37,485 bases of DNA from Actinomycetes bacterium. GTDB lineage: Bacteria; Actinomycetota; Acidimicrobiia; Acidimicrobiales; RAAP-2. The translations under genes and the position numbers were made by a program. The notes below the pieces were generated by a model, which saw only the letters and a list, made by a program, of their open reading frames with translations, was not told the DNA's origin and did not search any database. The number at the start of each line of letters is the position of its first letter. Position 1 is the first letter of the stretch. Positions 18,781 through 34,163 of the stretch are shown here, in pieces. The stretch is from the NCBI GenBank assembly GCA_021818025.1, contig JAKAFH010000013.1, positions 1-37,485 of the forward strand. The letters are read 5' to 3'.

Positions 18781-19791
18781 CTACCAGAGCGAGTTCCACT
18801 CCTCGTCGGTCAACCTCGCCAGTTCTGTCGCCGGCGTCGCCGTCACGTCGATCACCTGACGCTCGTCACTGACGTACGAGACGTGGTCCAGGCCCAGCCG
18901 ACGCCACGGTCCGAAGAGCTGGCGGTTGGCGAACTGGTTCGAATAGATCCCGCGCACCAGCAGAGTCGAATCAGATGCGGCCACTACGACCGCCGGCCGC
19001 TGCTTCGCGCGAACGTCGGGCATGGCCGGATCGATGGAGTCGAAGGGGATCTCGACGCTCACCACGGTCCCCGCCTTCACGTGGTCAACGTCGACGAGCC
19101 GGGCCTCGGCGGGCGTGAGCGTGACCCGGCGACGCACGACGACCACGGAGGACATGGCGGGGCTTTCGGGCGGCTTCGGGGTATCGGGGCCAGCTGCTGC
19201 TCGGGCCTTGGTGGGACGTGGCGGTGGTGGCGACGCTGGCTTCTTCTTGTTCTTGGCCGCCTCGCGCCGTTGACGCCGGGCCTCGCGCACCGCGGGATTG
19301 ACGTCCTTGGGGGTGAGCAGCGAACCAGTCGGTTCGACGACGGCGACCTCGGGCAGCGCGAACTCCTCGCGCTCCTCGATCAGACGCCGACAGTGCTCCG
19401 CTGCGGGAAACTGCTCGCCGATCGCGAAGGCCAGCAATGCCGCGAGGTCGCCATCGGACACGCCTTCGGCTCGCATCGCGTCAACCGCGACGGCCATCTC
19501 GTCATACGTCGGCCGCTCCGAGTGCTCGCCGAGCAGTTCGATGATTCGATCGAGGCTGCGCGCGACGAGCAATTCCAGCAGGGCGCGCACCGCGACGAGC
19601 GGAGCGCTGGCAACAAATGACGCGACGTCGCGGCGCTGCTGGAGCCCGCGCAGCGGCATGCCGACGGCCGGCGAGATCTTCGTGCTCGGGCGAAGGTCGA
19701 GGGCGGCGGCGACCTCAAGCACCACTGCCTCGTCGAGGCGTGCGAGTCCTCGGCGCAGCGCATCGGCCGGTGTCAGAGCGTTGGCCGTCAT
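18781..19791 (-). CDS. Protein with C-terminal MazF/PemK-like domain, unknown role
   Basis: A 336-aa protein in three parts. Residues 1-160 form a helical, Leu/Ala-rich domain I do not recognise. About 165-215 is a basic, proline-rich linker (KNKKKPASPPPPRP). About 236-320 resembles the MazF/PemK fold: AGTVVSVEIPF, then K263-Q-R265-P with AVVV, then LLVRGIYS. The Arg-Pro followed by hydrophobic residues is typical of MazF, but the usual catalytic Thr-Ser (ITS) reads IYS, so RNase activity is doubtful. ATG 19791 has GGAGGT 5 bases upstream. The gene is divergent from the J-domain/nuclease fusion. It could be a fused toxin-antitoxin, a regulator with a MazF-type fold, or neither. Confidence 0.7.
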   Translation of the reverse strand: MTANALTPADALRRGLARLDEAVVLEVAAALDLRPSTKISPAVGMPLRGLQQRRDVASFVASAPLVAVRALLELLVARSLDRIIELLGEHSERPTYDEMAVAVDAMRAEGVSDGDLAALLAFAIGEQFPAAEHCRRLIEEREEFALPEVAVVEPTGSLLTPKDVNPAVREARRQRREAAKNKKKPASPPPPRPTKARAAAGPDTPKPPESPAMSSVVVVRRRVTLTPAEARLVDVDHVKAGTVVSVEIPFDSIDPAMPDVRAKQRPAVVVAASDSTLLVRGIYSNQFANRQLFGPWRRLGLDHVSYVSDERQVIDVTATPATELARLTDEEWNSLW

Positions 19792-19931
19792 GACCGACCT
19801 CCGTCTCTCCGCGGCGACGGGTCCTTGTGGGTGGCGAGCGTGCTCGCGGCTACGGGGGCAAAAAGTGGTGCGGCGACGTGTGGCGACTCTTGTGCCACGC
19901 GCGGAGATCGGTCCCGGAGAAGTTCGGTCAT
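19788..19931 (-). CDS. Possible 47-aa leader ORF overlapping the MazF-like gene start
   Basis: A small open frame, ATG 19931 to TGA 19788, whose stop overlaps the MazF-like start as ATGA, the arrangement expected for translational coupling. No domain is seen; the peptide is Pro/Arg/Ala-rich. Only about two thirds of its third codon positions are G or C, lower than in surrounding genes, and upstream GGTGG is a weak ribosome-binding site. It could be chance. An in-frame ATG at 19994 would make it 68 aa. Confidence 0.22.
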   Translation of the reverse strand: MTELLRDRSPRVAQESPHVAAPLFAPVAASTLATHKDPSPRRDGGRS

Positions 19932-20069
19932 GGACCACCACTCTACGGCGGGGCGCCGATTCGATTGATGGTCGCTCACGACGTCGTTGGTCACACACGA
20001 CGATTCGAGCGGTCAGGGGCGTGTTGGGGACTCTTTACTTGGCGACACTCTGCTGCAAGGCTGAACGCG
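19792..20069. other. Divergent intergenic region with palindromes
   Basis: This 278-bp stretch separates the MazF-like gene from the J-domain fusion and should contain both promoters. A 10-bp perfect palindrome ACGACGTCGT lies at 19978-19987. An 8-bp hairpin (19878-19885 with 19895-19902, one G-U pair, 9-base loop) lies inside the possible leader ORF. No convincing -35/-10 pair was found. Confidence 0.35.
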
Positions 20070-21200
20070 GTGGCGGATGCCAATTACTACGAGATCTTGG
20101 GTGTCACGCCCGGAGCGACGCCCGAGGAGATTCGTGCGGCCTACCTCGAACTCGTGAAACGAGTGCACCCCGACTCGGGCGGCAATGAGGCGCTCTTCCG
20201 ATCCGTCAATGCGGCGTACGAGACCCTGAGCGATCCAGGACGACGAGCACGATACGACCGGAACGGCTTCCTTGACGCCGACGCGCCTCCAACGGACGCG
20301 GCCGCACCAGGTTGGCGGCGCACGGATGGGCCGACCGACGGCAACGGCGCGAGCGCGACGTCAGAACCGGGGACGAGGAGCGACTCGGCGACCGGTGGCG
20401 CATCGGGTGGTCCGGCCCCGGGTCCTCCGCCCAGCGCACCGCCGGCGTCCGACACCGGGGAGGGACAGCACGGGACTGGCCCGTCATGGTCGCACATCGC
20501 CAGCGGAACAATTCTTCGTATGGCCTCTGCCAATCCCTCGATTGCCACGTTCGGCGCGGGTGTCGCGCTCGTCGTGTTCGGCACTCATTTGGGCTCGGCC
20601 GCTCCCAGCTCGCTGCTCGTCGGCTTCGCGTTAGCGGTCGTCGGCCTCCTCGGCATCGCCGGTCGCGATGCGGCCGCCAGACGCGAGACGAACGAGCGCG
20701 CCAGCATCGGCAACCTTGGCGACGCCTCGGACGCCGAATTTGAGCAGCGGCTCGTCTCCGCCTTTCGTCACGTTGGCTATACCGTCTATCAGCGGCGGGG
20801 ACGAGAGGACGATGACGTCGACCTCGTGTTGGACCTCCCGGGTAGTCGTACCGTCGTCCAGGCGCGGCGATGGTACGCCGCAGTTGATCCCGCCGTCATC
20901 AAAGAGACGATCGCGAGTCGCTCCCACTACGACGCCCAACACGCCATCGTCGTATCAACAAGCGGCTTTACGAAGACCGCCGTCGATGTGGCCACGGCGA
21001 ACCACGTCGAGACGTGGAACGCGAATCGGCTATCGGAATTCATCGCTGCCCAAGAGCTCGGCCCGACGCGAACTGGAACGTCGCTCCTCGGTCGAGAGCT
21101 GCGGTACGGCACCCCGGTGGTCCTGCGACGCAGCCTCGCGTTCCTCGCCGGCATGGCGGCCACGGGGGCGTCGACGAAGAAACGACGACGCAAGAGGTAG
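20070..21200 (+). CDS. J-domain / two-TM / Mrr-like nuclease fusion protein
   Basis: A 376-aa protein with an unusual order of parts. Residues 2-65 are a DnaJ J-domain with an intact H33-P34-D35 motif, so it can probably stimulate an Hsp70. About 70-150 is a Gly/Pro/Ser-rich linker. Two hydrophobic helices follow (about 158-172 and 178-197). The C-terminal half resembles the Mrr/restriction-endonuclease fold: FEQRLVSAFRHVGYTV, then D251 and Q264-A-R266 followed by RW. Mrr-type enzymes normally have Q-x-K there; Arg replaces the catalytic Lys, so cleavage may be lost or changed. Start GTG 20070 has AAGG upstream and removes an unsupported N-terminal extension. It is coupled to the next gene (2 bp gap). 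Confidence 0.8.
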   Translation: MADANYYEILGVTPGATPEEIRAAYLELVKRVHPDSGGNEALFRSVNAAYETLSDPGRRARYDRNGFLDADAPPTDAAAPGWRRTDGPTDGNGASATSEPGTRSDSATGGASGGPAPGPPPSAPPASDTGEGQHGTGPSWSHIASGTILRMASANPSIATFGAGVALVVFGTHLGSAAPSSLLVGFALAVVGLLGIAGRDAAARRETNERASIGNLGDASDAEFEQRLVSAFRHVGYTVYQRRGREDDDVDLVLDLPGSRTVVQARRWYAAVDPAVIKETIASRSHYDAQHAIVVSTSGFTKTAVDVATANHVETWNANRLSEFIAAQELGPTRTGTSLLGRELRYGTPVVLRRSLAFLAGMAATGASTKKRRRKR

Positions 21201-21202
21201 GG

Positions 21203-21940
21203 ATGGGTGCGCGTGACGACCTCGAAGCGGTGCGCAATGGCCAACTGGCAACACGCGGCCCCGCGATGGTTAACTTCGCGCCGGCGCAGGCCGTGGGCTT
21301 TGACATCGTGCCGAGCGTCGTTCGCAACGAACTCTTCGCTACGAGGACGATTGGCACGAGGGCCATCAGTGCGAGCGCCCACGATCTGGTCGTTCGTCGT
21401 CGACCCGACGGTGCCCTCTATCAGTCGTGTGAGGCGTGGTGGGGAGACGACTTGGGAGCAGTACTCGACACGGTTCGTCGCCCGATGGCGCATCGCGACG
21501 GGCGGTCGTACTCGCCCAGCGGGCCGTGGACGGTGAGCGGAACGCTGTACCAGTTCGGCGCCGTGGACGGCCTCGAACGGTCGGCGTGGCAGTTTGATGG
21601 GTCATCAGTGCGAGAGAGAACGCACTCGTCGCCCACCACGACCGTAGAGCCACTCGATCTACTGCCACCAGAGGTCACCGCGCCGATCCGTGGCGGCCTG
21701 AGCGACGTTTGGCGCGAACATTCCAGGGATCGGGCGACCGAGTACCTCACCGCGATCCGCATCCTCGACCATCGAGTCTTGTTGCTCGAGGCGCATCGCA
21801 CGGCGCGACGCCTCACTGCGTTAGTCAGTGCGGCGTGGGAACTCACGACGTTCGACGCGCCCATTGCCGCGCGCTCGCCAATCAGCTTCACGTGCATCGA
21901 CGACGGCCCAACACCGATGCTCGATCGGCGAGGCATTTAG
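21203..21940 (+). CDS. Hypothetical protein coupled to the J-domain/nuclease fusion
   Basis: No family recognised. The 245-aa soluble protein has no signal peptide, membrane helix or known motif. It is rich in Arg, Trp and Ser, with a central stretch that repeats short aromatic/Gly turns (YSPSGPWTVSGTLYQF) suggestive of beta structure and a helical segment near 180-220. ATG 21203 starts 2 bp after the preceding stop, with AGAGG overlapping that stop, so the two genes are almost certainly translated from one mRNA and may act together. A larger frame beginning at 21014 is only the overlap with the upstream gene. A terminator-like repeat follows immediately. Confidence 0.72.
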   Translation: MGARDDLEAVRNGQLATRGPAMVNFAPAQAVGFDIVPSVVRNELFATRTIGTRAISASAHDLVVRRRPDGALYQSCEAWWGDDLGAVLDTVRRPMAHRDGRSYSPSGPWTVSGTLYQFGAVDGLERSAWQFDGSSVRERTHSSPTTTVEPLDLLPPEVTAPIRGGLSDVWREHSRDRATEYLTAIRILDHRVLLLEAHRTARRLTALVSAAWELTTFDAPIAARSPISFTCIDDGPTPMLDRRGI

Positions 21941-21987
21941 CAAGGCCATCGTCGCCAATGCGTCGCTCGAACCCCTCGACGGCCTTG
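21941..21987 (+). terminator. Long inverted repeat directly after the 245-aa gene
   Basis: CAAGGCCATCG (21941-21951) and CGACGGCCTTG (21977-21987) are complementary at 10 of 11 positions with a 25-base loop. The left arm begins right after the TAG stop. There is no U-tract, so it would be an atypical terminator. It separates the accessory locus from the response-regulator gene. Confidence 0.45.
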
Positions 21988-22099
21988 GGTCGCGTAGAAG
22001 GTGAATTGCGCACCTGTATGGTCAGGGGATGCGGTCGAAATTCGAGCGATGGCGTCCCCGTGCGCGACGGGGCCAGTCCGACTCTCCCCGGAGCCACGC

Positions 22100-22801
22100 G
22101 TGCCACCAACGGTCCTGATCGTCGAGGACGAAACCAAGCTTCGCGATCTCATTCGCTCGTTCCTCGAGCGCGAAGGCATCACGGTACTATCGGCCGCGAC
22201 CGGCGCCGAGGCCCTGGCGCTCGCGTCGCACTCGGAGCCCGACCTCGTCGTGCTGGATCTGGGGCTGCCTGACATATCGGGTCTGGACTTGGTCACCGAG
22301 CTCCGTCGAGGCTCAGACGTGCGGGTGCTGATTCTGACCGCCATGTCGAGTGAGGAGGACCGGATCAGGGGGCTCGAGCTGGGCGCGGATGACTACGTCA
22401 CCAAGCCATTCAGTCCACGTGAACTCACGCTGCGGGTCCAGGCGATGTTGCGTCGTGGTCGGGGCCCTGACGAAGGATCCCACCAGCGCTCGTTCGGCAA
22501 CGGACTACTCGAGATCGACGACGATCAGCACGAGGTCCGGGTGCGCGGCGTCCCGATCAGCCTGTCGCGCACGGAGTGGGGGCTGTTGAACGAACTCGCG
22601 AGGACGCCCGGACGCGTCTACTCGCGCTACGAACTGGTGAACGCCGTGCGCGGCTACGAATGGGGAGGCTATGAACGGGTGATCGACTCACACGTCAAGA
22701 ACCTGCGACGCAAACTCGGTGAGGACTCTGCGCACCCCCAGATCATCGAGACGGTGCTCGGCATCGGGTATCGCCTCATGCCCCGCCGAGACGGCTCGTG
22801 A
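22100..22801 (+). CDS. OmpR-family response regulator
   Basis: A 233-aa two-component response regulator. The receiver domain has the acidic pocket (E9, D10), phospho-acceptor D53 in VVLDLGLPD, and the switch Thr and Lys in LTAMSS and DDYVTKPF. The C-terminal winged helix is OmpR/PhoB type (LSRTEWGLLNELARTPGRVYSR, then a recognition helix near RVIDSHVKNLRRKLG). Start GTG 22100 has GGAG 7 bases upstream; the open frame further upstream lacks domain content. The stop overlaps the kinase start as GTGA. The likely target is the glycan operon downstream, whose leader has 11-bp direct repeats. Confidence 0.93.
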   Translation: MPPTVLIVEDETKLRDLIRSFLEREGITVLSAATGAEALALASHSEPDLVVLDLGLPDISGLDLVTELRRGSDVRVLILTAMSSEEDRIRGLELGADDYVTKPFSPRELTLRVQAMLRRGRGPDEGSHQRSFGNGLLEIDDDQHEVRVRGVPISLSRTEWGLLNELARTPGRVYSRYELVNAVRGYEWGGYERVIDSHVKNLRRKLGEDSAHPQIIETVLGIGYRLMPRRDGS

Positions 22802-24138
22802 CCACGTCGCCGGTGGATCGACGCTCCGAGTGGCTGGGACCGGTCGGACGCAGGCTCGCCATTGGCTCGATGCTCATCGCGATGACGTCGGTCGTCGCCC
22901 TCGCCGTGGCCACGGTCTGGCTGACTGACAGCGACATCACCAGTGCGGGCAATGACAACGAGCGTACGAGTACCACCGCACTCGTCTCGTCCATTCGGAC
23001 CGCCTACGCGCGCGATCACGACTGGAAACCATCGGACTTGTCGGCCTCGACGGAACTCGCCCAGGCAATGGGACTGGGACTGACGGTGCGGGTGCACGGC
23101 AGCACCTACGTGTCGCTGGCACCACCATCGGGTGGAGGTCCGACCCGAAGCGTGCCAGTCAAGGTCAATGGCCAGACGATCGCAACCGCCACCATCTCCT
23201 TCCCCGCTTCGGGCCTGCTGCCCGAGGAGGTGCGGTTCCGTCACTCAATCGAGCAGTCGCTGGCGATCGCTTCGGGACTCGCCCTGATCATCGCACTCGC
23301 GACCGCTATCTTCGGCTCTCGGTGGCTCGTGCGTCCCCTGCGCTCACTGACCTTGGCGACACGCCGGCTGGCGAGCGGTGATCACTCCAGTCGCGCCACC
23401 AACATTCGAGGGACCGGCGAAGTGGCTGAGCTCGCCATGGCATTCAACGGGCTCGCGGAGAAGCTCGAGCACGAAGACCACCTTCGTCGAACACTGGTCG
23501 CGGACCTCGCGCACGAATTGCGGACACCGCTGTCAGTACTGAAGGCGCAGATCGAGGGCATTTCGCTCGGCGTGATCGAGCTCGACCAGCACGCGGTCAC
23601 CGCGCTCGGCGAGGAAGTCGAGCACGTCAATCGGCTCGTCGAGGACTTGAGCGTTCTCTCATCGGCCGAGGCCGCTGGACTGGCCCTCAACTTTGAGACA
23701 GTCGACCTCGCGCGCGTCACGTCCAACGCCGCGGCTCGCCTCGCGCCGCGCTACATCGCCAAGGGCGTGAACCTCGAAGTGCAGTTCAGCCCCGCCGCGG
23801 TCAAGGGCGACCCCAACCGCCTCGAACAGATTGCCGTCAACCTCCTGTCAAACGCCGTGAAGTTCACGCCTCCCGGTGGCACGGTCTGGGTCCGTGTCTG
23901 GGGCGATGATCACGAGGGAGTTCTAACGGTCACCGACACCGGGCGAGGGATTCCCGAGGACGAGCAGCGTCTCGTCTTCGACCGATTCTTCAGGGGCGCG
24001 AGCGCTCGGGACACGCCAGGTAGCGGTATCGGGCTCGCGGTGGCGTCATCGCTCGTCCACGCGCACCAGGGAACGATCTCGATCGAGAGTTCACCGGGCT
24101 CTGGAAGCACCTTTACGGTGCGCCTGCCTCGAGCCTGA
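22798..24138 (+). CDS. Sensor histidine kinase, partner of the response regulator
   Basis: A 446-aa membrane kinase. TM1 is at about 21-42 and TM2 at about 158-178, enclosing an extracytoplasmic sensor region of about 115 residues with no recognised fold. HAMP (about 180-230), HisKA with phospho-acceptor H239 in DLAHELRTPLS, and the ATPase domain with N-box NLLSNAVKF, G1 DTGRGIPEDE and G2 GSGIGLAV follow in order. Translation is coupled to the regulator by a GTGA overlap. Signal unknown; a cell-envelope cue is plausible given the glycan-export genes downstream. Confidence 0.93.
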   Translation: MTTSPVDRRSEWLGPVGRRLAIGSMLIAMTSVVALAVATVWLTDSDITSAGNDNERTSTTALVSSIRTAYARDHDWKPSDLSASTELAQAMGLGLTVRVHGSTYVSLAPPSGGGPTRSVPVKVNGQTIATATISFPASGLLPEEVRFRHSIEQSLAIASGLALIIALATAIFGSRWLVRPLRSLTLATRRLASGDHSSRATNIRGTGEVAELAMAFNGLAEKLEHEDHLRRTLVADLAHELRTPLSVLKAQIEGISLGVIELDQHAVTALGEEVEHVNRLVEDLSVLSSAEAAGLALNFETVDLARVTSNAAARLAPRYIAKGVNLEVQFSPAAVKGDPNRLEQIAVNLLSNAVKFTPPGGTVWVRVWGDDHEGVLTVTDTGRGIPEDEQRLVFDRFFRGASARDTPGSGIGLAVASSLVHAHQGTISIESSPGSGSTFTVRLPRA

Positions 24139-24155
24139 GTTCCCGCACCCAAAAT

Positions 24156-24177
24156 TCCACACAACCTCCACACCACC
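24156..24177. promoter_or_regulatory. 11-bp tandem direct repeat upstream of the glycan operon
   Basis: TCCACACAACC is followed directly by TCCACACCACC (10 of 11 identical), and a third CCCACAC lies just beyond. A perfect palindrome CACCGCGGTG sits at 24180-24189. OmpR/PhoB-family regulators bind head-to-tail repeats of 11-bp period, and such a regulator is encoded just upstream. The site is about 100 bp before the first gene of the operon. The repeat is certain; binding is inferred. Confidence 0.45.
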
Positions 24178-24273
24178 CACACCGCGGTGCCACGCCCGTC
24201 GTGTCTCATGAGGTGGCTACGCGAGCGCTCGTCGGACAAGCCGACACGGTGACTGTCGCGAAGGAGAACAGGC

Positions 24274-25233
24274 ATGAACGGAAGGTGCGTTGTTACCGGA
24301 GCCGCGGGCTTCATCGGATCGCGACTGACACGATTGCTGCTGGTCGAAGGCTGGGACGTCGTAGGCGTCGACGCGTTCACCGATTCCTACGATCCGACTG
24401 AGAAGCTCGCGCGCGCGGAGGCACTGCGCACGCATCCTCACTACCGTCACGTCACGGCTGACGTCGCCGAGTGCGACCTCGGCGCCATCGTGGACGGCGC
24501 CGAGGTCGTGTTCCACCTGGCGGGACGGCCCGGCGTGCGCGACAGCTTCGACATTCCCGTGAAGTACCACCACGACAACGTGGTCGCCACCACGTACCTC
24601 GTTGCGGCCGCTCGTCGATCGGCGTCGGTGCGCCGCCTGGTCTACGCCTCATCGTCCTCGGTCTATGGGAACGCGCCACTCCCCTTCACCGAGAATGGTC
24701 CGACGGCGCCCCTGTCGCCGTACGGCCAGACCAAGCTCGAGTCGGAACGCCTGTGCCTCGAGGCCAACGGCACAGACCTCGAGACGACCGCGTTGCGCTA
24801 CTTCACGGTCTACGGTCCTGGTCAGCGCCCCGATATGGGGCTTCGTCGCTTCGCCGAGGCCGCCCTCGACGGTCGCCCGATTCGCCTCTTCGGCGACGGC
24901 ACGCAGAGCCGGGACTTCACCTACGTCGACGACATCGTGCGCGCCACCCGCCAAGCCGCGGACGCCGACGTCGCCGGACTCGCGGTCAACGTGGGCGGTG
25001 GATCCAGGATCACGCTCAACGAGGTGTTCGAGCTGCTCGGCGAGCTAACCGGTGGCCCGGTGTCGTTGCAGCGCGAGCCCTTCGCCCGGGGCGACGCGCG
25101 CCACACCGGCGCCGACCTCACCCTCGCGCGCGAACGGCTCGAGTTTGCCGCGCGCACGGACTTCGCCGACGGCTACGCCGCGGAGGTTGACTGGCTCCGC
25201 GAGCGAAGCCTCGTGACGCTGCGGAGCGCGTGA
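24274..25233 (+). CDS. NAD-dependent sugar-nucleotide epimerase (SDR), likely UDP-hexose/uronate 4-epimerase
   Basis: A 319-aa extended short-chain dehydrogenase. The NAD-binding motif is G9-A-A-G12-F-I-G15; catalytic elements are SSSSVYG and Tyr150-x3-Lys154 (YGQTK). LRYFTVYGPGQRPDM and the late GDGTQSRDFTYVDD are typical of UDP-glucose and UDP-glucuronate 4-epimerases. With UDP-glucose dehydrogenase in the same operon, UDP-glucuronate to UDP-galacturonate is a likely reaction, but substrate cannot be read from sequence alone. ATG 24274 has AAGGAG 7 bases upstream, the best ribosome-binding site in the operon, marking it as the first gene. Confidence 0.88.
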   Translation: MNGRCVVTGAAGFIGSRLTRLLLVEGWDVVGVDAFTDSYDPTEKLARAEALRTHPHYRHVTADVAECDLGAIVDGAEVVFHLAGRPGVRDSFDIPVKYHHDNVVATTYLVAAARRSASVRRLVYASSSSVYGNAPLPFTENGPTAPLSPYGQTKLESERLCLEANGTDLETTALRYFTVYGPGQRPDMGLRRFAEAALDGRPIRLFGDGTQSRDFTYVDDIVRATRQAADADVAGLAVNVGGGSRITLNEVFELLGELTGGPVSLQREPFARGDARHTGADLTLARERLEFAARTDFADGYAAEVDWLRERSLVTLRSA

Positions 25234-26447
25234 TGAGCCAGACCGAAGCGCTGCGCCGTGTCCTGCTCTACGCCCACGACACCTACGGCCTCGGCCACTT
25301 GCGACGCAACCTGGCGATCGCCGCGCACCTGTTGGCAACACACCCGGGACTCCAGGTTGTCTTGATGACTGGCTCTCCCGTGGCTGGACACTTCGCCATC
25401 CCCGAGCGACTGACGCTGGTCCAGCTGCCACCGGTGGTCAAAGTTGGCGTCGAAGAGTACCGATCACACGATGATCGATGGGACATCGATCTCGTGAGGC
25501 GTACCCGCAGCGCGATCATGGTCGACACCGCGCTGCGGTTTCGCCCCAATGTCCTGCTGGTGGACCACGCCCCCATCGGCATGAAGGGCGAGCTCGTTCC
25601 GGTCTATGACGCGCTGAAAACCCACTCGCCGAGCACGCGAATCGTGCTCGGACTCCGCGACGTCCTCGACGACCCCGAGACCGTGCGCCAGCTCTGGCAA
25701 ACCCAGCGCGCCTACGACGCGCTCGAGGACGTGTTCGACCGGATTCTCGTCTACGGGAACCACGACCTCTTTGACGTCGTGTCCTCCTACGGCCTGTCCA
25801 CCAGTGTCGCGTCCAAGCTCACCTACTGCGGCTACGTGAGCCGCCAGCTCCCCGGCGGCGCGGCGCCGATGCGGGAAGATTTCGTTCTCGGCACCGCGGG
25901 CGGTGGCGGCGACGGCGTCGAGGCGCTGTCGGCGACGCTCGCGGCGTGCGCGGCGCTCGGCGTGGCCTGTCGAATCGTGACCGGGCCGCTCATGAGCGCC
26001 ACCGACCGAGCGAGGCTGATCCGCGAGGCGAGTGTGGACCCGCGGGCCTCGGTCACCGAATTCCTACCCGACGCCGACGCCACCATGGCCCGCGCCCGCG
26101 CCGCGGTGACCATGGGTGGTTACAACTCACTCTGCGAGCTCGTTGCGAGCGCCACGCCCACCGTCGTGGTTCCACGGATCTACCCGCGCCGCGAACAGGC
26201 CATCCGGGCCGAACTCTTCGCGGCCCGCGGTGCGGTCGCCGTCGTCTCACCGGGAGCCGATCTGGCTCGGCGCATCTATCAAGCCCTGCGCGGGGCCATC
26301 GATCAGGGACCTCGCACCGGCCCCAGTCCCATCGACCTCGGCGGCCTGGCCGAGATCGAGCGGGCGCTCGACGCCGAGGCGCGCCTGGGCCGAACGCGTG
26401 ACGCCGCGGCGCACACCAGCGTGAACTCAGTGGGGACGCCGGCGTGA
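25233..26447 (+). CDS. MurG-like (GT-B) glycosyltransferase, COG4671-type
   Basis: A 404-aa predicted glycosyltransferase of the COG4671 / GT28-like type, cytoplasmic or membrane-associated. The N-terminal domain has YGLGHLRRN, similar to the glycine-rich acceptor loop of MurG. The C-terminal donor site has AVTMGGYNSLCELVASATPTVVVPR. The start is ATG 25233 (overlapping the epimerase stop as TGATG); GTG 25230 is possible. A paralog closes the same operon (30922-32115). Neither substrate can be assigned; a uronic-acid donor would fit the neighbours. Confidence 0.82.
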   Translation: MSQTEALRRVLLYAHDTYGLGHLRRNLAIAAHLLATHPGLQVVLMTGSPVAGHFAIPERLTLVQLPPVVKVGVEEYRSHDDRWDIDLVRRTRSAIMVDTALRFRPNVLLVDHAPIGMKGELVPVYDALKTHSPSTRIVLGLRDVLDDPETVRQLWQTQRAYDALEDVFDRILVYGNHDLFDVVSSYGLSTSVASKLTYCGYVSRQLPGGAAPMREDFVLGTAGGGGDGVEALSATLAACAALGVACRIVTGPLMSATDRARLIREASVDPRASVTEFLPDADATMARARAAVTMGGYNSLCELVASATPTVVVPRIYPRREQAIRAELFAARGAVAVVSPGADLARRIYQALRGAIDQGPRTGPSPIDLGGLAEIERALDAEARLGRTRDAAAHTSVNSVGTPA

Positions 26448-27712
26448 GCACGACGGTGACCTATCTCACCAAGCGGTTCCCCCGACTCTCCGAGACGTTC
26501 ATCCTCGACGAGATCATCGGACTCGAACAGGCGGGCGTGCCGCTACGGCTCTACGCCATCGCGGATCCTCACGAGGACCTCGTCCAGCCCGACGTCGCGC
26601 GCGTGACGAGTCCCGTGACCTACCTGCGGGCCGAGGGCGGGTCGCGCGAGCGCGTGCGCGTCGCGTTCGCGACCCTGCGCGCACACGCGCGACTCCTACG
26701 TCGAAGACCACGCCGCTACCTCGGTCTGCTCGTCTACATTGCTCGAGAACGCCGACACGTCTCGACACTCGTCAACTTCGCCCAGGCGGGCCGACTGACT
26801 GTCCTGATCGAGGCCGAGGGGGCGCGCCACGTGCACGCCGCCTTCGCCCACGGCCCCGCCTCCGTCGCGCACTTCGTGCACTTACTCAGCGACTTGCCCT
26901 TCAGCTTCTCCGCGCACGCCAAGGACATCTACGTCTCCTCCCCGGACCTGCTGGCGCGCAAGATCCAAGACGCCAGCTTCGTGCTCACGTGCTCGCGCTC
27001 GGCCCACGACGCCATGGTGGGTGTCGCTGACGCCGATGCGGCCAAGGTCCTCCTCGCCCACCACGGCGTCAACACTGAGCGGTTCGCACCCTCCGAAGCG
27101 ACCGCACCGGCACACAACGGACCGATGCGGATCCTGGCGGTCGGTCGACTCGTCCCCAAGAAGGGCTACCCCGTTCTGCTCGGCGCCATCGGTGTCCTCG
27201 TGAACGAGGGTCGCGACGTCGACTGCTCGATCGTGGGCGCCGGGCCCGAGCGTGACGAGTTGGCCGCGCTGGTGGCGAGTCTCGGCATCGGCGATCGCGT
27301 GCACTTCCTCGGCGCCCTATCGGCCACCGGCGTTGCCGCCTCGTATCACGGGGCCGACGTCTTCGTCCAGGCCAGCGTGGTCATGGCCAACGGCGATCGA
27401 GACGGCATTCCCAACTCGCTACTCGAGGCGATGGCGAGCGGCCTCGCGGTCGTCGCGAGCAACGTGGCCGGGATCCCCGAAGTCGTCACCGCCGACGCCG
27501 GTCTCCTGGTCGCACCCGGGGACGCCGAGGCGCTCGCTCGCGCACTGGCGCGACTGCAGGACGAAGAAGGGCTCCGGGAAGGGTTGGGTCAGGCGGCGCG
27601 GCGCCACATGGTCGAGTCGTTCGATCGCCGAGCCTGCGCCTCGGCGATCGCCCCCCTCTTTGACGCCACTCGGTCGGTCGCCGCACCCGTGCGCGGAGGC
27701 GCCCGCTCGTGA
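26444..27712 (+). CDS. GT4-family glycosyltransferase
   Basis: A 422-aa GT-B glycosyltransferase of family 4. The start LTKRFPRLSETFILDE is typical of GT4 enzymes in exopolysaccharide pathways such as colanic-acid WcaL types. FSAHAKDIY is the acceptor-side loop. AVGRLVPKKGYP and DGIPNSLLEAMASGLAVVAS form the nucleotide-sugar site, with Asp in place of the first Glu of the E-x7-E pattern, a common variant. GTG 26444 overlaps the previous stop (GTGA), and the end overlaps the ABC exporter the same way. The probable role is extending a lipid-linked or oligosaccharide acceptor before export. Confidence 0.9.
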   Translation: MSTTVTYLTKRFPRLSETFILDEIIGLEQAGVPLRLYAIADPHEDLVQPDVARVTSPVTYLRAEGGSRERVRVAFATLRAHARLLRRRPRRYLGLLVYIARERRHVSTLVNFAQAGRLTVLIEAEGARHVHAAFAHGPASVAHFVHLLSDLPFSFSAHAKDIYVSSPDLLARKIQDASFVLTCSRSAHDAMVGVADADAAKVLLAHHGVNTERFAPSEATAPAHNGPMRILAVGRLVPKKGYPVLLGAIGVLVNEGRDVDCSIVGAGPERDELAALVASLGIGDRVHFLGALSATGVAASYHGADVFVQASVVMANGDRDGIPNSLLEAMASGLAVVASNVAGIPEVVTADAGLLVAPGDAEALARALARLQDEEGLREGLGQAARRHMVESFDRRACASAIAPLFDATRSVAAPVRGGARS

Positions 27713-29523
27713 TCGGACGTTTTCGCTCGCACATCCGACCGGTTCGCGCGATGCTCGGGGCGGGGCTCGCCGCCAGCGTGCTCGCCGCCGTCATGCAGTG
27801 GCTCATCCCCTGGCCGCTCAAGTTCATCTTCGACAGCGTCCTGGGCCACCGCACGCTCCCGTCGTGGCTGCACTGGATGCCCCATCAGCGCTCGGGACTG
27901 CTCGTTGCGATGATGCTCGCGATGATTGCAATCGCGGCCGCGCTCGCGGTCTCGGACTACTTCTCGACGCGGCTCATGGCCACGGCCGGCCAGCGCGTCG
28001 TGCTCAACATTCGCCGGGAGCTGTTCGACCACCTCGAGGCTCAGTCCCCCCAGTTCCATCAGAGCCGGCGCACCGGCGACCTCCTCGCCCGACTGGGCGG
28101 TGACGTGCAGGCGATCCAGAGCGCGGTGATCAACGCCGTGCCGACCCTCGTACGAAACGTCCTCACCCTCACCGGAATGATCGCGATCATGCTGATCGTC
28201 GACTGGCGCTTCGCGCTGCTCGCCATGACCTTGGTGCCACTGCTCTTGTGGGCGACGCATCACTACCTCGCTCGAATCAAGGCCTACCAGCGCCTGGCGC
28301 GGCGCTCCGACGGCGACGCCAACGCGGTGGCCCAGGAAGTGCTGAACGCGATGACCGTGGTGCAGGCCTTTGGCGCCGAGGCCGTCGAGGCCGCCCGCTA
28401 CGGCGAGGCGACGGAGCGAGGACTCGAGCAGAATCGCCGCGCCATCGTCGCCCAGTCGCAGTTCACGCCGTTGATGACCCTGGCGATGTCGCTGTCCACT
28501 GCGATGGTGTTGTACTTCGGCGCCCGTGACGTGATCGCCGGCAGTCTCACGGCGGGCGACCTGCTGGTGTTCACGGCCTACCTGCGCGGCATGTACAGCC
28601 CCGTGCGCCAGCTCTCGAAGTTGGCCGGCGTCGTCGGGCGCGCCCACGCGGCCGCGGAGCGTGTCGTCGAGCTGCTCGACACGCACGAAGAGGTTCCCGA
28701 AGTCCCCGAACCACGCCATCTCGCCCGCGTCCGCGGCGAGATCGTCCTGGCCGACGTGTCGGTGGCCTACCCGGGCGGCACCCCCGTAATCAGTGGCGTC
28801 TCGCTGCACCTCGACCCGGGAACGCGCCTCGCCCTCGTGGGAACCACCGGCTCGGGCAAGAGCACCCTCGTGCGCCTCCTGCCACGGTTCCTCGACCCGA
28901 CTTCTGGCGCGGTGTACCTCGACGGCGTGAAACTCACCGATCTGGCGCTCGCCGACCTTCGCCGTCAAATCGCCTACGTGCCCCAGGAGCCGTACCTGTT
29001 CCGCGCGCCGGTCTGGGAGAACATCGTCTACGGGTCCGTCGAACTCGGCCGGACGGGCGCCATCGGGGCCGCACGACGTGCTGGCCTGCACGAACTGATC
29101 GAGTCCTTTCCCCAGGGCTACGACACGCTCGCGAGCGAGCGCGGGCAGTCCCTCTCGGGCGGGCAGCGCCAGTGCATCGCGATCGCGCGCGCCATGGCGC
29201 GAAACGCGCCCATCCTGTTGCTCGACGAGCCCATGACAGGCCTCGACGCGGAACTCGAGTCGACCGTGCTCGGCGCGATTGACCTGGTCGCCGCCGGCCG
29301 AACGAGCATCATCGTGAGCCACCAGTTGTCGCGCCTCGGCGCCGTCGACCACATCGCCGTCGTGAGCGACGGACGCATCGACGAGTCTGGCACGCACGCC
29401 CAGCTGATGAACCAACGACGCCTGTACTGGCGCCTTCGCCGGCTGCAGGCCGACGAGCTCGCCAGCCCCGCCGTACCGCGCGAGACAGCACACGCCCACC
29501 AACTCGTCAAAGGAGAGGCATGA
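27709..29523 (+). CDS. ABC exporter (fused TM and ATPase half-transporter)
   Basis: A 604-aa half-transporter of the MsbA/lipid- or glycan-exporter type, expected to work as a homodimer in the membrane. About six TM helices fill residues 1-330. The ATPase domain has Walker A GTTGSGKST (about 380), PQEPYLFRAPVWENI, signature LSGGQRQ (about 482), Walker B ILLLDEP (about 505) and the switch His in IVSHQLSRL. Unusually for this class, translation is coupled on both sides to glycosylation genes (GTGA and ATGA overlaps), so the cargo is likely the glycan or glycolipid made by the operon. No separate TM subunit is needed. Confidence 0.93.
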   Translation: MIGRFRSHIRPVRAMLGAGLAASVLAAVMQWLIPWPLKFIFDSVLGHRTLPSWLHWMPHQRSGLLVAMMLAMIAIAAALAVSDYFSTRLMATAGQRVVLNIRRELFDHLEAQSPQFHQSRRTGDLLARLGGDVQAIQSAVINAVPTLVRNVLTLTGMIAIMLIVDWRFALLAMTLVPLLLWATHHYLARIKAYQRLARRSDGDANAVAQEVLNAMTVVQAFGAEAVEAARYGEATERGLEQNRRAIVAQSQFTPLMTLAMSLSTAMVLYFGARDVIAGSLTAGDLLVFTAYLRGMYSPVRQLSKLAGVVGRAHAAAERVVELLDTHEEVPEVPEPRHLARVRGEIVLADVSVAYPGGTPVISGVSLHLDPGTRLALVGTTGSGKSTLVRLLPRFLDPTSGAVYLDGVKLTDLALADLRRQIAYVPQEPYLFRAPVWENIVYGSVELGRTGAIGAARRAGLHELIESFPQGYDTLASERGQSLSGGQRQCIAIARAMARNAPILLLDEPMTGLDAELESTVLGAIDLVAAGRTSIIVSHQLSRLGAVDHIAVVSDGRIDESGTHAQLMNQRRLYWRLRRLQADELASPAVPRETAHAHQLVKGEA

Positions 29524-30932
29524 GAGACCAGACACGAGGACCGGCCACCAACCCCGTCGCGGCCACGACGGTCTGTGTCATCGGCGCCGGCTACGTCGGG
29601 CTCACCGCGGCCGCCTGCCTCGCCGAGCTCGGCCACGAGGTTCGCTGTGTCGAGTCGGACCCGCTGCGCCTGGCCGCGCTCACGCGCGGCGAGATCCCGA
29701 TCTACGAGCCCGGCATCGAGGAATTGGTCGCGCGCCACACGGGCTCGGGCCGACTCACCTTCACCGCCGACACCGCCGTCGCCATGGACGGCGTGGCGGT
29801 GGCCATGCTGTGCGTCGGAACGCCACCGCGCTCCGACGGCGAACCAGACCTGCGCCAGCTAGGCCGGGCGGCGACCGAGGTCGCCGCCTGCGCGACGACC
29901 AACGTGGCGCTCGTCGTGAAGAGCACCGTGCCCCCGGGCACGTGCGAGGCGCTCGAGCTCTTCGTGGGCGGCCAGGCTCGTGAGGGGGTCCGGGTTCGCG
30001 TGGTGTCCAACCCCGAGTTCCTTCGCGAGGGTCGGGCGGTGTGGGACTTCTTCAACCCCGACCGAGTCGTCGTCGGCGCGGACGACCCCAATCTCGGCCA
30101 ATTGGTCGCTGACCTCTACCCCTCGGACTGGCCCCTCATCGAGTGCAGTCGTCGTAGCGCCGAACTGGTGAAGTACGCGTCCAACACCTTCCTCGCCGTA
30201 AAGATCTCCTTCGCCAACGAAGTCGCTGCCCTGTGCGAGGCGCTCGGCGCCGAGACCGACAAGGTCCTGGGCGGCGTGGGACTCGACGCGCGCATCGGCC
30301 AGGCATTCCTTGCCCCGGGTCCCGGATTTGGCGGCTCGTGCCTGCCCAAGGACCTGTCGGGCTTCATCGCCGTCGCCGAGTCCGCCGGGCGTCCGGCCGA
30401 AGTCGCTCGCGCGGCCCAGCGCGCCAACGACGCCGCGCAGGTCAGTGTCATCGCCAAGGTCGAGTCCGCCCTCGGGTCGCTGCCGGGGCGCACGGTCACC
30501 GTGCTCGGACTCGCCTTCAAAGCGGGTACCGACGACACCCGCTTCTCGCCGGCACTCGCCCTCGTTCGCGGTCTGGCGCTACGCGGGGCGCGGGTGCGCG
30601 TGCACGACCCCATCGCCACGGTGTCCGATCCCGCGGTGTGCCAGCTCGACACACCCTACGACGCCGCGCAGGGATCGGACGCGCTCATCGTCGCCACGGG
30701 TTGGCCCGAGTATCACGACTTGGACCCGACGAAGTTGCGCGCGGTGATGGTGGGACACGTGATCGTGGATGCGGTCGGCGTCACCGCAATCGAACCGTTG
30801 CACGACGTGGGCTTTGACGTCTACGGGGTCGGCCGCGGGCTCGCCACGAGCTTCGCCCCCGTCCTGTGGCGACCACTCGAATGGATGCTGGACGCCGGCC
30901 AGCCGAGCACGATCGCAGCCCGTGAGCGTTGA
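29520..30932 (+). CDS. ugd: UDP-glucose 6-dehydrogenase
   Basis: A 470-aa cytoplasmic enzyme oxidising UDP-glucose to UDP-glucuronate with two NAD+. The Rossmann motif GAGYVGL follows a 15-20-residue tail, catalytic Cys274 is in GFGGSCLPKD, and AELVKYASNTFLAVKISF and LAFKAGTDDTR are conserved family blocks. The length fits. ATG 29520 overlaps the exporter stop (ATGA). Together with the epimerase it could supply UDP-glucuronate and UDP-galacturonate to the three glycosyltransferases. A GDP-mannose dehydrogenase activity is possible but less likely from the motifs. Confidence 0.93.
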   Translation: MRDQTRGPATNPVAATTVCVIGAGYVGLTAAACLAELGHEVRCVESDPLRLAALTRGEIPIYEPGIEELVARHTGSGRLTFTADTAVAMDGVAVAMLCVGTPPRSDGEPDLRQLGRAATEVAACATTNVALVVKSTVPPGTCEALELFVGGQAREGVRVRVVSNPEFLREGRAVWDFFNPDRVVVGADDPNLGQLVADLYPSDWPLIECSRRSAELVKYASNTFLAVKISFANEVAALCEALGAETDKVLGGVGLDARIGQAFLAPGPGFGGSCLPKDLSGFIAVAESAGRPAEVARAAQRANDAAQVSVIAKVESALGSLPGRTVTVLGLAFKAGTDDTRFSPALALVRGLALRGARVRVHDPIATVSDPAVCQLDTPYDAAQGSDALIVATGWPEYHDLDPTKLRAVMVGHVIVDAVGVTAIEPLHDVGFDVYGVGRGLATSFAPVLWRPLEWMLDAGQPSTIAARER

Positions 30933-32115
30933 CGTCACGGGGCGTCCCGCCCTGCTCTTCTATTCGCAGCACTCGGTCGGTCTCGGACACCTCGTTCGCT
31001 CACTCTCGGTGGCCGAGGCACTCGCGGGGCTCTTCCGAGTCGTGCTCGTCAGCGGTGGTCCAGTCCCGCCAGGCCTAATCGTTCCCCCGAGCGTCGAACT
31101 CGTCGCCTTGGACCCCATCGGCGCACGGGGCGGGGCCGACGCCACGCTCGCGAGTCTCGACCGCGAGCTGACGCTCGAGCAGGCGTGGAATCGACGACTG
31201 GACACGCTGCTCAACCTGCTCACCGCGTTGGGCCCCGCGGCACTGGTCGTGGAGCTCTTCCCCCTGGGACGTCGCAAGTTCGCCCGTGAGATCATCCCGC
31301 TCCTCGAACACGCCAGGTCGCTCGACGAGCCACCGGCGATCGTCTGCAGCGTGCGTGACATCCTGGTCGCCGGGGGCCCGGACCAGCAGGCCAAGGACGA
31401 CGATGCGGCCGAACGGCTCAATCGCCACTTCGATGCGCTCCTGGTACACGGCGATCCATCGGTTGCGCGTCTTGAGGACACCTTTAGACCCGCGGTGACA
31501 CTGCGCGTCCCGATCCACTACACCGGCTACGTGGTGCCCCGACGCGAGCGACTTCGCCACCTGCCGCACCAGCCACCGGAGATCCTGGTATCCGCGGGTG
31601 GCGGCAAAGTCGGTGCCGAGCTCCTGCGCTGCGCCGCCGACGCTCATCGCGATCACTTCGCACCTCGGGGACTGCGCACCCGCCTGGTGACCGGGCCCTT
31701 CCTCGCCGACGAGGACGTGACTGCGCTGACGGCACTGTCAGCCGAGTGCCCCGGGCTGTCGGTGGAGCGATTCATCCCCGACCTCGCCACCGCGATGGCG
31801 GCGGCGACCGCGTCGATCAGTCAGTGCGGCTACAACACGGCACTCGACATCGTTCGCTCCGGTGTGCCGTCAATCGTCGTGCCCCACGACGAGGGGCGCG
31901 AGACCGAGCAGGCCGCACGGGCGACCAGGCTCGCCGACCTCGGCGTGCTGCGAATTGTGCGTTCCGCACAGCTCTCGCCCCAGCGCCTGGCCGACGAGGT
32001 GACCTCGCTACTCGCCGCACCGCGCCGCGACGTCACGATCGACCTCGACGGGGCGCGCACCAGTGCGCGGCTGGTGGCTGAATTGGTCACTCGAATCCCC
32101 GCGCATTCGACGTGA
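30922..32115 (+). CDS. Second MurG-like (COG4671-type) glycosyltransferase
   Basis: A 397-aa paralog of the transferase at 25233-26447. It shares SVGLGHLVRSLSVAEAL at the N-terminus and, in the donor domain, SISQCGYNTALDIVRSGVPSIVVPH. The two differ strongly in the middle, so they probably use different acceptors or donors. GTG 30922 starts 11 bases inside the dehydrogenase gene; the frame further upstream is shadow. The end overlaps the phosphatase gene as GTGA. Function as for the first copy: addition of a sugar during glycan assembly, inferred. Confidence 0.82.
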   Translation: MSVDVTGRPALLFYSQHSVGLGHLVRSLSVAEALAGLFRVVLVSGGPVPPGLIVPPSVELVALDPIGARGGADATLASLDRELTLEQAWNRRLDTLLNLLTALGPAALVVELFPLGRRKFAREIIPLLEHARSLDEPPAIVCSVRDILVAGGPDQQAKDDDAAERLNRHFDALLVHGDPSVARLEDTFRPAVTLRVPIHYTGYVVPRRERLRHLPHQPPEILVSAGGGKVGAELLRCAADAHRDHFAPRGLRTRLVTGPFLADEDVTALTALSAECPGLSVERFIPDLATAMAAATASISQCGYNTALDIVRSGVPSIVVPHDEGRETEQAARATRLADLGVLRIVRSAQLSPQRLADEVTSLLAAPRRDVTIDLDGARTSARLVAELVTRIPAHST

Positions 32116-32924
32116 CGCACCACCAGCTGCCCGGCGTGGAAACGGACGAGACGCACGGCGATCTTCCGACGAGTGGCGCGCGAGCCACGACCGATCGCGG
32201 CACGCTGGTGTTGTTGCGCCATGGGCGAACCCAGTGGAACGACGAATCGCGGTTCACTGGCTGGGCCGATCCCTCGCTCAGCGAGCTCGGCACTCGTGAA
32301 GCGGCGTGGGCCGGCGAAGTCATCGCGTCATGTGGCGTCCGCGTATCCGTGGTGATAGCGAGTTTCGCCTCTCGCGCGTTGCAGACCGCTACCTTCGCCA
32401 TGCCCGTCACGTCCGCGCCGGACCGGCGTCGTGACTGGCGACTCAACGAACGACACTTCGGTCTCTTGCAAGGTCTCGATCGCTCTGCCGCCATCGACCG
32501 CTACGGCAAGGCGTCGGTCCGCCAGTGGCGACGTGACCGCGACGCGGTTCCCCCGGCCATCCCCAAGGACGACGCGCGTCACCCCCGCTACGACCCGCGC
32601 TACGCCGGCGTGGCACCAGCGGAGCTGCCGGGCGCCGAGTCGAAGGCCGACCACGAGCGCCGCATCCGAGCCTGTTGGCTCGACACGATCGACCCGCTCC
32701 TCGTCAACGGCGTCGCCGTCCTCGTCGTCGCGCACTGTCACAGCCTCCGGGCCCTGGCTCGACTGGCCGCAACCCGCGACGTCGATGAGTCGCCCACCCT
32801 GTTCGCTGCCACCGGTAGCGTGGCGATCGTCACCGGGTCCGGCGCGTTGCGCGAACTGCCAACGCTCGAGGGACCATCCGCTGAGGCGCCGCGTGGGCGG
32901 ACCGCGGCCAATCGAGTTCAGTAG
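32112..32924 (+). CDS. Histidine phosphatase, phosphoglycerate mutase-like, in the glycan operon
   Basis: A 270-aa histidine-phosphatase superfamily protein. The catalytic His37 is in LLRHGRTQWN. RLNERHFGLLQGL resembles cofactor-dependent phosphoglycerate mutase (dPGM), and the second His208 is in VAHCHSLRAL where dPGM has AHGNSLRAL. The N-terminus carries about 27 extra residues and the C-terminus is longer and variable. As the last gene of a glycan operon it more likely removes a phosphate from a sugar or lipid intermediate than serves in glycolysis; this is inference. Start GTG 32112 overlaps the preceding stop (GTGA). Confidence 0.85.
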   Translation: MTHHQLPGVETDETHGDLPTSGARATTDRGTLVLLRHGRTQWNDESRFTGWADPSLSELGTREAAWAGEVIASCGVRVSVVIASFASRALQTATFAMPVTSAPDRRRDWRLNERHFGLLQGLDRSAAIDRYGKASVRQWRRDRDAVPPAIPKDDARHPRYDPRYAGVAPAELPGAESKADHERRIRACWLDTIDPLLVNGVAVLVVAHCHSLRALARLAATRDVDESPTLFAATGSVAIVTGSGALRELPTLEGPSAEAPRGRTAANRVQ

Positions 32925-33020: not shown

Positions 33021-34163
33021 CTACTTCAGCAGGTGCTTGGCGACCACGACGCGCTGGACCTGGTTCGTGCCCTCGTAGATCTGGGTGATCTTCGCGTCGC
33101 GCATGAACCGCTCGACGGGGAAGTCTTTGGTGAAGCCGTAGCCGCCGAGCAGCTGCACGGCGTCGGTCGCGACGCTCATCGCCGTGTCCGAGGCGAACGA
33201 CTTCGCCGCCGCCGTCAGGTAGCTGAGGTTGTGGTCGGGGTCGCCCTCGTCGATCGCGCTGCAGGCGTGGTACACCATCGCGCGCGCCGCCTCGGTGCGA
33301 ATCGCCATGTCGGCCAGCATGAACCGCAGACCCTGCAGATCGCTGATCGGCGCGCCGAACGCGCGGCGTTGGGTCATGTACTGCGCCGCGTAGTCGATCG
33401 CCCCCTGGGCGATGCCCACCGCCTGGGCGCCGATGGTCGGGCGCGAGCGGTCCAGCGTGTGCATGGCGATCTTGAAGCCGTCACCCTCTTCCCCGATGCG
33501 GTGCGAGGCCGGCACGCGCACGTCGTTGAAGACGACCTCGCCGGTGGGCGACGCGCGTAGACCCATCTTGTCCTCGTGCTTGGGGAACTCCACGCCCCAG
33601 CCCTTCTCGACGAGGAAGCAGCTGATGCCGCGTCCCCTCGCGTCGGGGTCGGTGCTCGCGAAGACCGTGTAGGTGTCCGAGACGCCGGCGTTGGTGATCC
33701 AGTACTTCGAGCCGTTGATGATGTAGTCGTCCCCGTCGCGCACGGCGCGCGTGCGCATCGCGGCCACGTCCGAGCCCGCGTCGGCCTCGGAGAGGCAGTA
33801 GCTCGCCTGGATCTCGCCGGTGGCGATCCGGGGCAGGTAGGCCTGCTTGACCTCCTCGGAGGCGAAGTTGATGACCGGCAGCATGCCCAGCTTGGAGATC
33901 AGCATCGTCACCGACGTCGACGCGCAGGCCCGAGCGATCTCCTCGGCCATGATCGCCTGGGTCACCATGTCCGCGCCGGCCCCGCCGTAGGCGGCCGGAA
34001 CGCCGAGCGAGGGCAGATCCATCTCGACGCAGGCGTCGAAGCTCTTCTGGGGGAATACCTGGTCGCGGTCGTACTCAGCGGCGAAGGGCGCGATGCGCTC
34101 GTCCACGAAGCCGTGCATGACGTCACGAAACGCCCGTTGCTCTTCAGTAAGGGTGAAACTCAT
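33021..34163 (-). CDS. Acyl-CoA dehydrogenase (short/medium-chain type)
   Basis: A 380-aa flavin enzyme oxidising an acyl-CoA to a trans-2-enoyl-CoA, passing electrons to ETF. It has SYCLSEADAGSD (flavin site), KYWITNAG, the R/F block RRAFGAPISDLQGL and LLGGYGFTKDFPVER. The catalytic Glu is in TQIYEGTNQVQR, the position used in short- and branched-chain dehydrogenases. Length is standard, unlike the extended enzyme at 11595-13175. ATG 34163 has AGAGG 6 bases upstream. Butyryl-CoA or a branched-chain acyl-CoA is a likely substrate, but not readable with certainty. Confidence 0.92.
   Translation of the reverse strand: MSFTLTEEQRAFRDVMHGFVDERIAPFAAEYDRDQVFPQKSFDACVEMDLPSLGVPAAYGGAGADMVTQAIMAEEIARACASTSVTMLISKLGMLPVINFASEEVKQAYLPRIATGEIQASYCLSEADAGSDVAAMRTRAVRDGDDYIINGSKYWITNAGVSDTYTVFASTDPDARGRGISCFLVEKGWGVEFPKHEDKMGLRASPTGEVVFNDVRVPASHRIGEEGDGFKIAMHTLDRSRPTIGAQAVGIAQGAIDYAAQYMTQRRAFGAPISDLQGLRFMLADMAIRTEAARAMVYHACSAIDEGDPDHNLSYLTAAAKSFASDTAMSVATDAVQLLGGYGFTKDFPVERFMRDAKITQIYEGTNQVQRVVVAKHLLK

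Follow-up and report, generated by a model that had tools for sequence, protein, structure and literature searches.

In a stretch of 37,485 nucleotides from an Actinomycetes bacterium of the Acidimicrobiales lineage RAAP-2 (assembly GCA_021818025.1, contig JAKAFH010000013.1, positions 1 to 37,485, hereafter the window), two genes form, as comparisons between related genomes show, a real two-gene module that is co-inherited, closely spaced and co-diverging. Gene 1 (20070..21200; GTG start, 376 amino acids (aa)) encodes a protein that joins a J domain to a predicted transmembrane (TM) hairpin and an Mrr-like restriction endonuclease domain (J-TM-Mrr), and gene 2 (21203..21940; ATG start, 245 aa), which begins 2 bp after the gene 1 stop codon, encodes a partner that we call P3; both genes, and all features of gene 1 given below, lie on the + strand. 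With a probability of roughly 0.42, the most likely role of the pair would be that of a mobile, Hsp70-coupled, membrane-tethered defence module.

An initial annotation of the window had described three open reading frames, at 18781-19791, 20070-21200 and 21203-21940, all of which are present at these positions, and its reading of the middle one as a J-domain/TM/restriction-endonuclease-like protein is borne out, i.e. the product shows two clear domain matches with a hydrophobic stretch between them. From its N-terminus the gene 1 protein consists of the J domain, a GWxRxD motif, a proline-rich linker, the TM hairpin, the Mrr-like domain and an arginine-rich tail, and its homologues share the same first residue (MADANYYE...), in agreement with the GTG start at 20070. 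The J domain (20082..20258) matches Pfam family PF00226 with 66 bits and contains an intact HPD motif, and this combination qualifies gene 1 as a J-domain (DnaJ/Hsp40) protein. HPD is invariant in 11/11 rows of one alignment and 10/10 rows of another, which together represent 12 different J proteins, and the same is true of GWxRxD, which aligns as GWRRTD in the window (20310..20327), immediately 3' of the J domain, and is missing from both host DnaJ loci checked (2/2). J domains with HPD call Hsp70, and that of gene 1 may recruit DnaK. The membrane hairpin (20523..20663) is predicted from hydropathy: in the window's protein residues 180-198 alone exceed the threshold in this region, in all 8 other J-TM-Mrr proteins tested two hydrophobic segments do so, and 4 of those 8 have a further hydrophobic segment near the C-terminus. 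The gene 1 product is thus predicted to be a membrane-anchored J protein.

The C-terminal Mrr_cat or inactive-restriction-endonuclease-like domain (20727..21041) matches PF04471 with 72 bits (cut-off 21), covering nearly the whole profile, and the same region also matches PF22722 (NA-iREase1) with 30.5 bits (cut-off 27). The Mrr fold that had been proposed for this protein thus holds at the level of the profile, but its catalytic motif is not intact: an Mrr-type motif is expected to read D...(E/Q)xK, and sequence comparison places QAR at the expected (Q/E)xK in the window copy (20859..20867), with lysine replaced by arginine. Counting the window, the catalytic lysine is kept in 7/10 copies, with an intact QAK in genome G007, and lost in 3/10; two residues ahead of it, five of these 10 copies have Q, four have H and one has R. 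Because the catalytic lysine is replaced, a working Mrr nuclease is doubtful in the window copy, which is probably a poor nuclease or none, and its Mrr fold may serve DNA binding. Both module genes are under purifying selection, with ratios of nonsynonymous to synonymous substitution rates (dN/dS) of 0.18-0.35 in five pairs each, several of them with saturated dS, and of the three pairs compared by region two show their lowest dN in the J domain. Among the anti-phage models of PADLOC 2023, the matches of gene 1 are confined to the nuclease domain (ZorD with 28.6 bits, PDC-S02 and mREase_IV), P3 matches none, and no single system is matched by both module genes.

P3 has no Pfam match in 6/6 members scanned, no hydrophobic or TM segment by hydropathy in 11/11 proteins and no internal repeats in an hhalign self-test (probability 0.3%). 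An AlphaFold2 model built from six sequences is beta-rich, with a mean predicted local distance difference test score (pLDDT) of 72.9 and values below 50 in the first 34 residues. When this model was compared by Foldseek with PDB and viral predicted structures, no convincing match was found, the query TM-score being at most 0.21 among the matches listed, and with VIA-align the best Z for this six-sequence model was 5.3, a level that the tool itself calls possibly just a common arrangement. Sequence searches of the PDB with P3, and with the protein encoded at 18781-19791, gave nothing useful. P3 would therefore represent an unnamed protein family that matches no known family, with a fold that is not shown to be new.

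The tight coupling of the two genes, already suggested by the initial annotation, is confirmed far beyond the window. P3 lies directly 3' of a J-TM-Mrr gene at 10 of 11 loci, with gaps of -28 to +10 bp that depend on P3 start codons chosen by the analyst, and distances in the two protein families correlate with r = 0.96 over 45 pairs, a value reached by none of 5000 label permutations. Among 61 related genomes, P3 occurs in 5 (4/37 of the genus and 1/24 others), and the Mrr part of gene 1 is strong in the same 5; the other 56 are without either gene, bar 3 weak Mrr-only matches. Within 395 genomes of the class, P3 was found in 6, i.e. the window's own, G126, G431, G326, G334 and, weakly, G173. 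In the phylum it was found in 2/396 genomes, both belonging to the genus, and among 99 genomes of the genus in 7, at 8 loci. The total is 11 loci in 10 genomes, 7 of the genus plus G044, G326 and G334 from other genera, and the named relatives with the module are metagenome-assembled genomes (MAGs) labelled Acidimicrobiaceae or Actinomycetes bacterium. A search of the same 395 class genomes with the TM-Mrr part (E<=1e-12) returned four strong genomes (the window's, G126, G431 and G326), all with P3, and one further match that was weak and Mrr-only (G063). In a genome-contig collection the J-TM-Mrr query found nothing, and the P3 query then gave five loci.

Some candidates were set aside in these counts. 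Weak Mrr-only matches in G015, G017, G042 and G063 were not accepted as module members, the P3 match in G173 was dropped (E 9e-4 over 56 residues, with neither module protein found around it), and G826 was left out because its J domain runs off the contig end. The J-TM-degenerate-Mrr gene of G820, which has no P3, was treated separately. G026 carries two module copies, 92.4% identical over 3.16 kb, and these could be variants from different strains mixed in one MAG.

At the eleventh locus (G334, L060 5037-7353), P3 stands between two J proteins without Mrr, whose first 338 bp are 99.4% identical and whose C-termini are different, ending in two hydrophobic segments in one (200 aa) and in LRV/HEAT-like repeats in the other (274 aa). 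By its sequence this pair looks like the product of a recent duplication or gene conversion in which one end was swapped. J domain, GWxRxD and P3 together thus show themselves in these alignments as a constant core, to which an exchangeable C-terminus is attached. Since P3 is kept at G334 without a recognised Mrr domain, it tracks the J core rather than the nuclease. A simple antitoxin would not be expected to behave in this way: in type II toxin-antitoxin pairs the partner should track the toxin domain, and at this one locus it does not. Conversely, the only full-length J-TM-Mrr-like copy without P3 in 99 genomes, that of G820, reads GWSRAG in place of GWxRxD and has a ruined nuclease motif; as a single case, the altered motif together with the missing partner fits a contact of P3 at GWxRxD.

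The module also appears to be mobile, as its patchy spread, atypical composition and insert-borne position indicate. The homologue of the gene at 18781-19791 and an acyl-CoA dehydrogenase gene (33021-34163 in the window) share one contig in 21 genus genomes, window included. In 14/21 no more than about 110 bp separates them, whereas in 7/21 (again with the window) the distance is 2.1 to 13.2 kb, the largest, 13.2 kb, being that of the window. The gap is thus a recurrent insertion spot, which is empty in 14/20 comparable relatives, a count that covers only genus genomes showing both flanking genes on one contig. Inserts at this spot in G010 and G014 carry a pSAM2-type RepSA gene, and the G829 module sits at a different site. 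In the window the insert (20070..32924) is headed by the module and continues, as context and not as part of it, with genes (22100-32924) for an OmpR-type response regulator, a histidine kinase, an epimerase, glycosyltransferases and an ABC exporter; of the nine genes other than the module, eight were sought at the spot in 26 stretches of relatives, and none was present at 45% identity or more. Of all 37 window genes, the two of the module rank last in codon score (0.063 and 0.003 versus 0.255 +- 0.062 for 26 flanking genes) and in GC content at third codon positions (0.75 versus 0.90), and the codon usage of the remaining insert genes is intermediate between core and module. Gene caller and codon model were purpose-built and trained on the window and 12 relatives' loci, and they miss atypical genes, P3 among them.

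Scans of the genes around other module loci with Pfam and defence models covered chosen genes, not all genes at each locus. Within this scope, neighbours include a type IIG restriction-modification enzyme in G007, an HNH_2 protein, a DEDDh exonuclease and a type III methylase in G126, HNH_2 in G431 (and likewise in G820, which is without P3), a SNF2 helicase related to BrxHI/DrmD in G334, a Schlafen-type helicase together with a below-cut-off MazG-like gene in G829, a patatin at one of the G026 copies and a weak restriction match in G028. The HNH_2 proteins, of about 300-330 aa, recur in three genomes, each time no more than 5 kb from a module-type locus (L058 3323-4246, L059 7768-8760 and L128 9612-10523). 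The SNF2 helicase of G334 (L060 595-4406) adjoins an unnamed 697-aa protein, and the two could be a small separate defence system. In G820 the J-TM-degenerate-Mrr gene (L128 6755-9028) is followed by a NERD-domain gene, faces an HNH_2 gene and has beside it a Complex-I/hydrogenase-type operon, apparently the one that also borders the G829 module.

The literature searched, with most subscription papers outside its coverage, showed no described J-Mrr system among the papers listed. Mrr-type restriction endonuclease proteins (PF04471 and, more weakly, PF22722) resemble the module in the near-whole profile match of the C-terminal domain, and the module differs from them by the fusion to a J domain and TM hairpin and by the replaced lysine in 3/10 copies. 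In polymorphic toxin systems the immunity protein should change along with the toxin domain. P3, by contrast, stays while the C-terminus changes, and the likeness to these toxins consists in a common N-terminus with exchanged C-termini, as at G334 (PMC3482391). In the bNACHT25 system phage sensing requires host DnaJ with an intact HPD (PMC12169576), so that a J domain with working HPD takes part in phage sensing there; the J protein in that case is the host DnaJ and the receptor a NACHT protein, whereas here the J domain is built in and no NACHT is found by Pfam. SNIPE is a membrane-bound nuclease by which phage DNA is cut during injection (PMC13190303), and it shares with the module a membrane-held nuclease-fold protein, a DNA-facing domain and diversified regions on a common core. 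SNIPE, however, combines a GIY-YIG nuclease, its most conserved part, with DUF4041, neither of which gives a Pfam match at E<=1 in the module, whereas in the module it is the J domain that is kept, the Mrr-like fold being often degraded, and P3 is a dedicated partner. In GAP1-N2-centred conflict systems, partly from actinobacteria, DnaJ is likewise fused into a predicted conflict protein (DnaJ-FNIII; PMC7159879), but no such GTPase, FNIII, HSP70 or GrpE occurs among the chosen neighbours scanned by Pfam, and the partner is another one. Because bNACHT25 needs host DnaJ and SNIPE cuts at the membrane, a membrane-located, chaperone-linked defence model seems reasonable for the module.

In such a model the J domain with its intact HPD would recruit host Hsp70 (DnaK) at the inner membrane, the TM hairpin would keep the gene 1 protein membrane-held and the C-terminal domain, usually Mrr-like, would face cytoplasmic DNA. 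P3, presumably produced by translational coupling as a soluble partner, would most likely bind the constant N-terminal half, i.e. J domain plus GWxRxD, and either keep the protein off or sense its state. Phage infection or entry of foreign DNA might then alter Hsp70/J-domain occupancy, upon which P3 would release and the C-terminal domain could act on or hold DNA; in copies without the catalytic lysine, the window's included, the Mrr fold would bind instead of cutting. Membrane topology, DnaK recruitment, the P3 binding site, the trigger and the defence role itself are deductions here.

The membrane-anchored, Hsp70-linked defence or stress module suggested by the initial annotation thus persists as a sporadic, atypical two-gene pair with restriction-type neighbours at some loci, minus the third gene and with defence as a deduction. 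Several findings weigh against a defence role. Nothing observed demonstrates phage defence directly; the nuclease motif has decayed in 3/10 copies, the lost lysines being replaced by arginine in the window and G431 and by threonine in G829; and in the third of the pairs compared by region the J domain is not the slowest part, since the C-terminal tail has a slightly lower dN. The range is very narrow (5 convincing P3 genomes of 395 in the class), and searches of a plasmid collection (72,556) and a phage collection (50,697) gave no P3, nor did a pattern-limited scan of viral contigs. Of the nine other genes in the window's insert, the six put through Pfam fall into regulatory, glycan and transport categories. 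A check for defence genes around homologues, as the initial annotation had advised, was positive for restriction-type genes at some loci, yet the window, G044 and the second G026 copy showed no clear defence gene nearby, and G326 had hardly any neighbouring genes that allowed a judgement. Raw PADLOC families, counted as families and not as proteins, do not separate the sets either: 58 occur in 66 module-neighbour proteins (11 of 12 loci yielded proteins) and 63 in 75 proteins from ten random stretches, which come from seven of the same genomes and were drawn only from contigs already in hand. In the 25 families displayed for each set, the HNH (3 proteins), type IIG (1) and type III methylase (1) kinds are confined to the module neighbours, a difference that is suggestive, with enrichment not proved.

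Alternatively, gene 1 may encode a membrane J protein that acts in envelope stress or in protein quality control and has re-used the Mrr fold for binding, with P3 as a substrate adaptor and no link to phage. This would agree well with a J domain and HPD that are always retained next to a dispensable nuclease motif, and with the TM-only and LRV versions in G334. The patchy, atypical and insert-borne spread (7/99 genus genomes) would be unusual for housekeeping proteostasis, however, and restriction-type genes adjoin some loci, so that we regard this explanation as unlikely. Somewhat less probable still seems an integrated chaperone decoy, i.e. a J domain inside a membrane-tethered immune protein that exposes phage proteins hijacking or overloading Hsp70, with P3 as a release switch at GWxRxD and the C-terminus as an exchangeable output (Mrr nuclease, dead Mrr, TM only or LRV). 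If true, this would be a chaperone-guard system with the guarded part built in.

There is a rather small chance that the module is cargo of integrative elements and serves the element, by maintenance or exclusion of other elements, instead of the host. The window's spot does take stretches with RepSA genes in G010 and G014, but no integrase or Rep family was seen among the 6 of 9 other insert genes scanned, the plasmid, phage and viral-contig searches returned no copy and the G829 module lies elsewhere. A toxin-antitoxin pair, in which J-TM-Mrr would be a DNA-cutting toxin and P3 its antitoxin, has slightly poorer prospects: two close genes, a small soluble partner, sporadic spread and a nuclease fold would suit it, but P3 is retained in the copies that have lost the catalytic lysine and stays at G334, where no Mrr is seen.

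Highly improbable, finally, is the divergent three-gene module with a MazF-like toxin that the initial annotation had envisaged, which has in its favour the adjacency and the 278-bp divergent gap (19792-20069) to gene 1, both real in this one genome, and a faint similarity to MazF relatives. The divergent gene (18781-19791) encodes a protein without any Pfam family at E<=1; PemK/MazF (PF02452) is matched by 0/10 members of its family at E<=10, a PF02452 search of the window's own genome at E<=10 does not return the protein, and a single match far below the cut-off (E 0.5) lies inside the G041 homologue. In hhalign comparisons with MazF relatives only an 11-residue KxRPAVVVAA stretch aligned, with a probability of 5%, and the C-terminal part, folded as a single sequence, gave no usable model (pLDDT 37); these results neither demonstrate nor rule out a remote MazF-like barrel. 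Of 37 genus genomes, 33 have the gene and 4 the module, and the two are on different contigs (some short) in 3/3 other genomes with both (G007, G026 and G028). Because it is core and lies apart, which the initial annotation itself had named as grounds for refutation, it falls out of the module and was rejected as a part of it, its MazF identity being unconfirmed. The co-occurrence that had been proposed as a check therefore applies to gene 1 and P3, which travel together, and the divergent gene is by its distribution an unrelated core neighbour. As the insert separates this core gene from its usual neighbour, the acyl-CoA dehydrogenase gene, the divergent arrangement looks like an accident of insertion.

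If the mobile two-gene pair does serve in defence, a J-domain-based class would join membrane-located bacterial immunity, and the idea of DnaJ as a guard, known from bNACHT25, would be tied to a self-contained gene pair, with GWxRxD as a testable candidate motif for contact with P3. Even if its role is not defence, it would be a mobile module linked to Hsp70, with an unnamed protein family at its centre and C-termini that can be exchanged.

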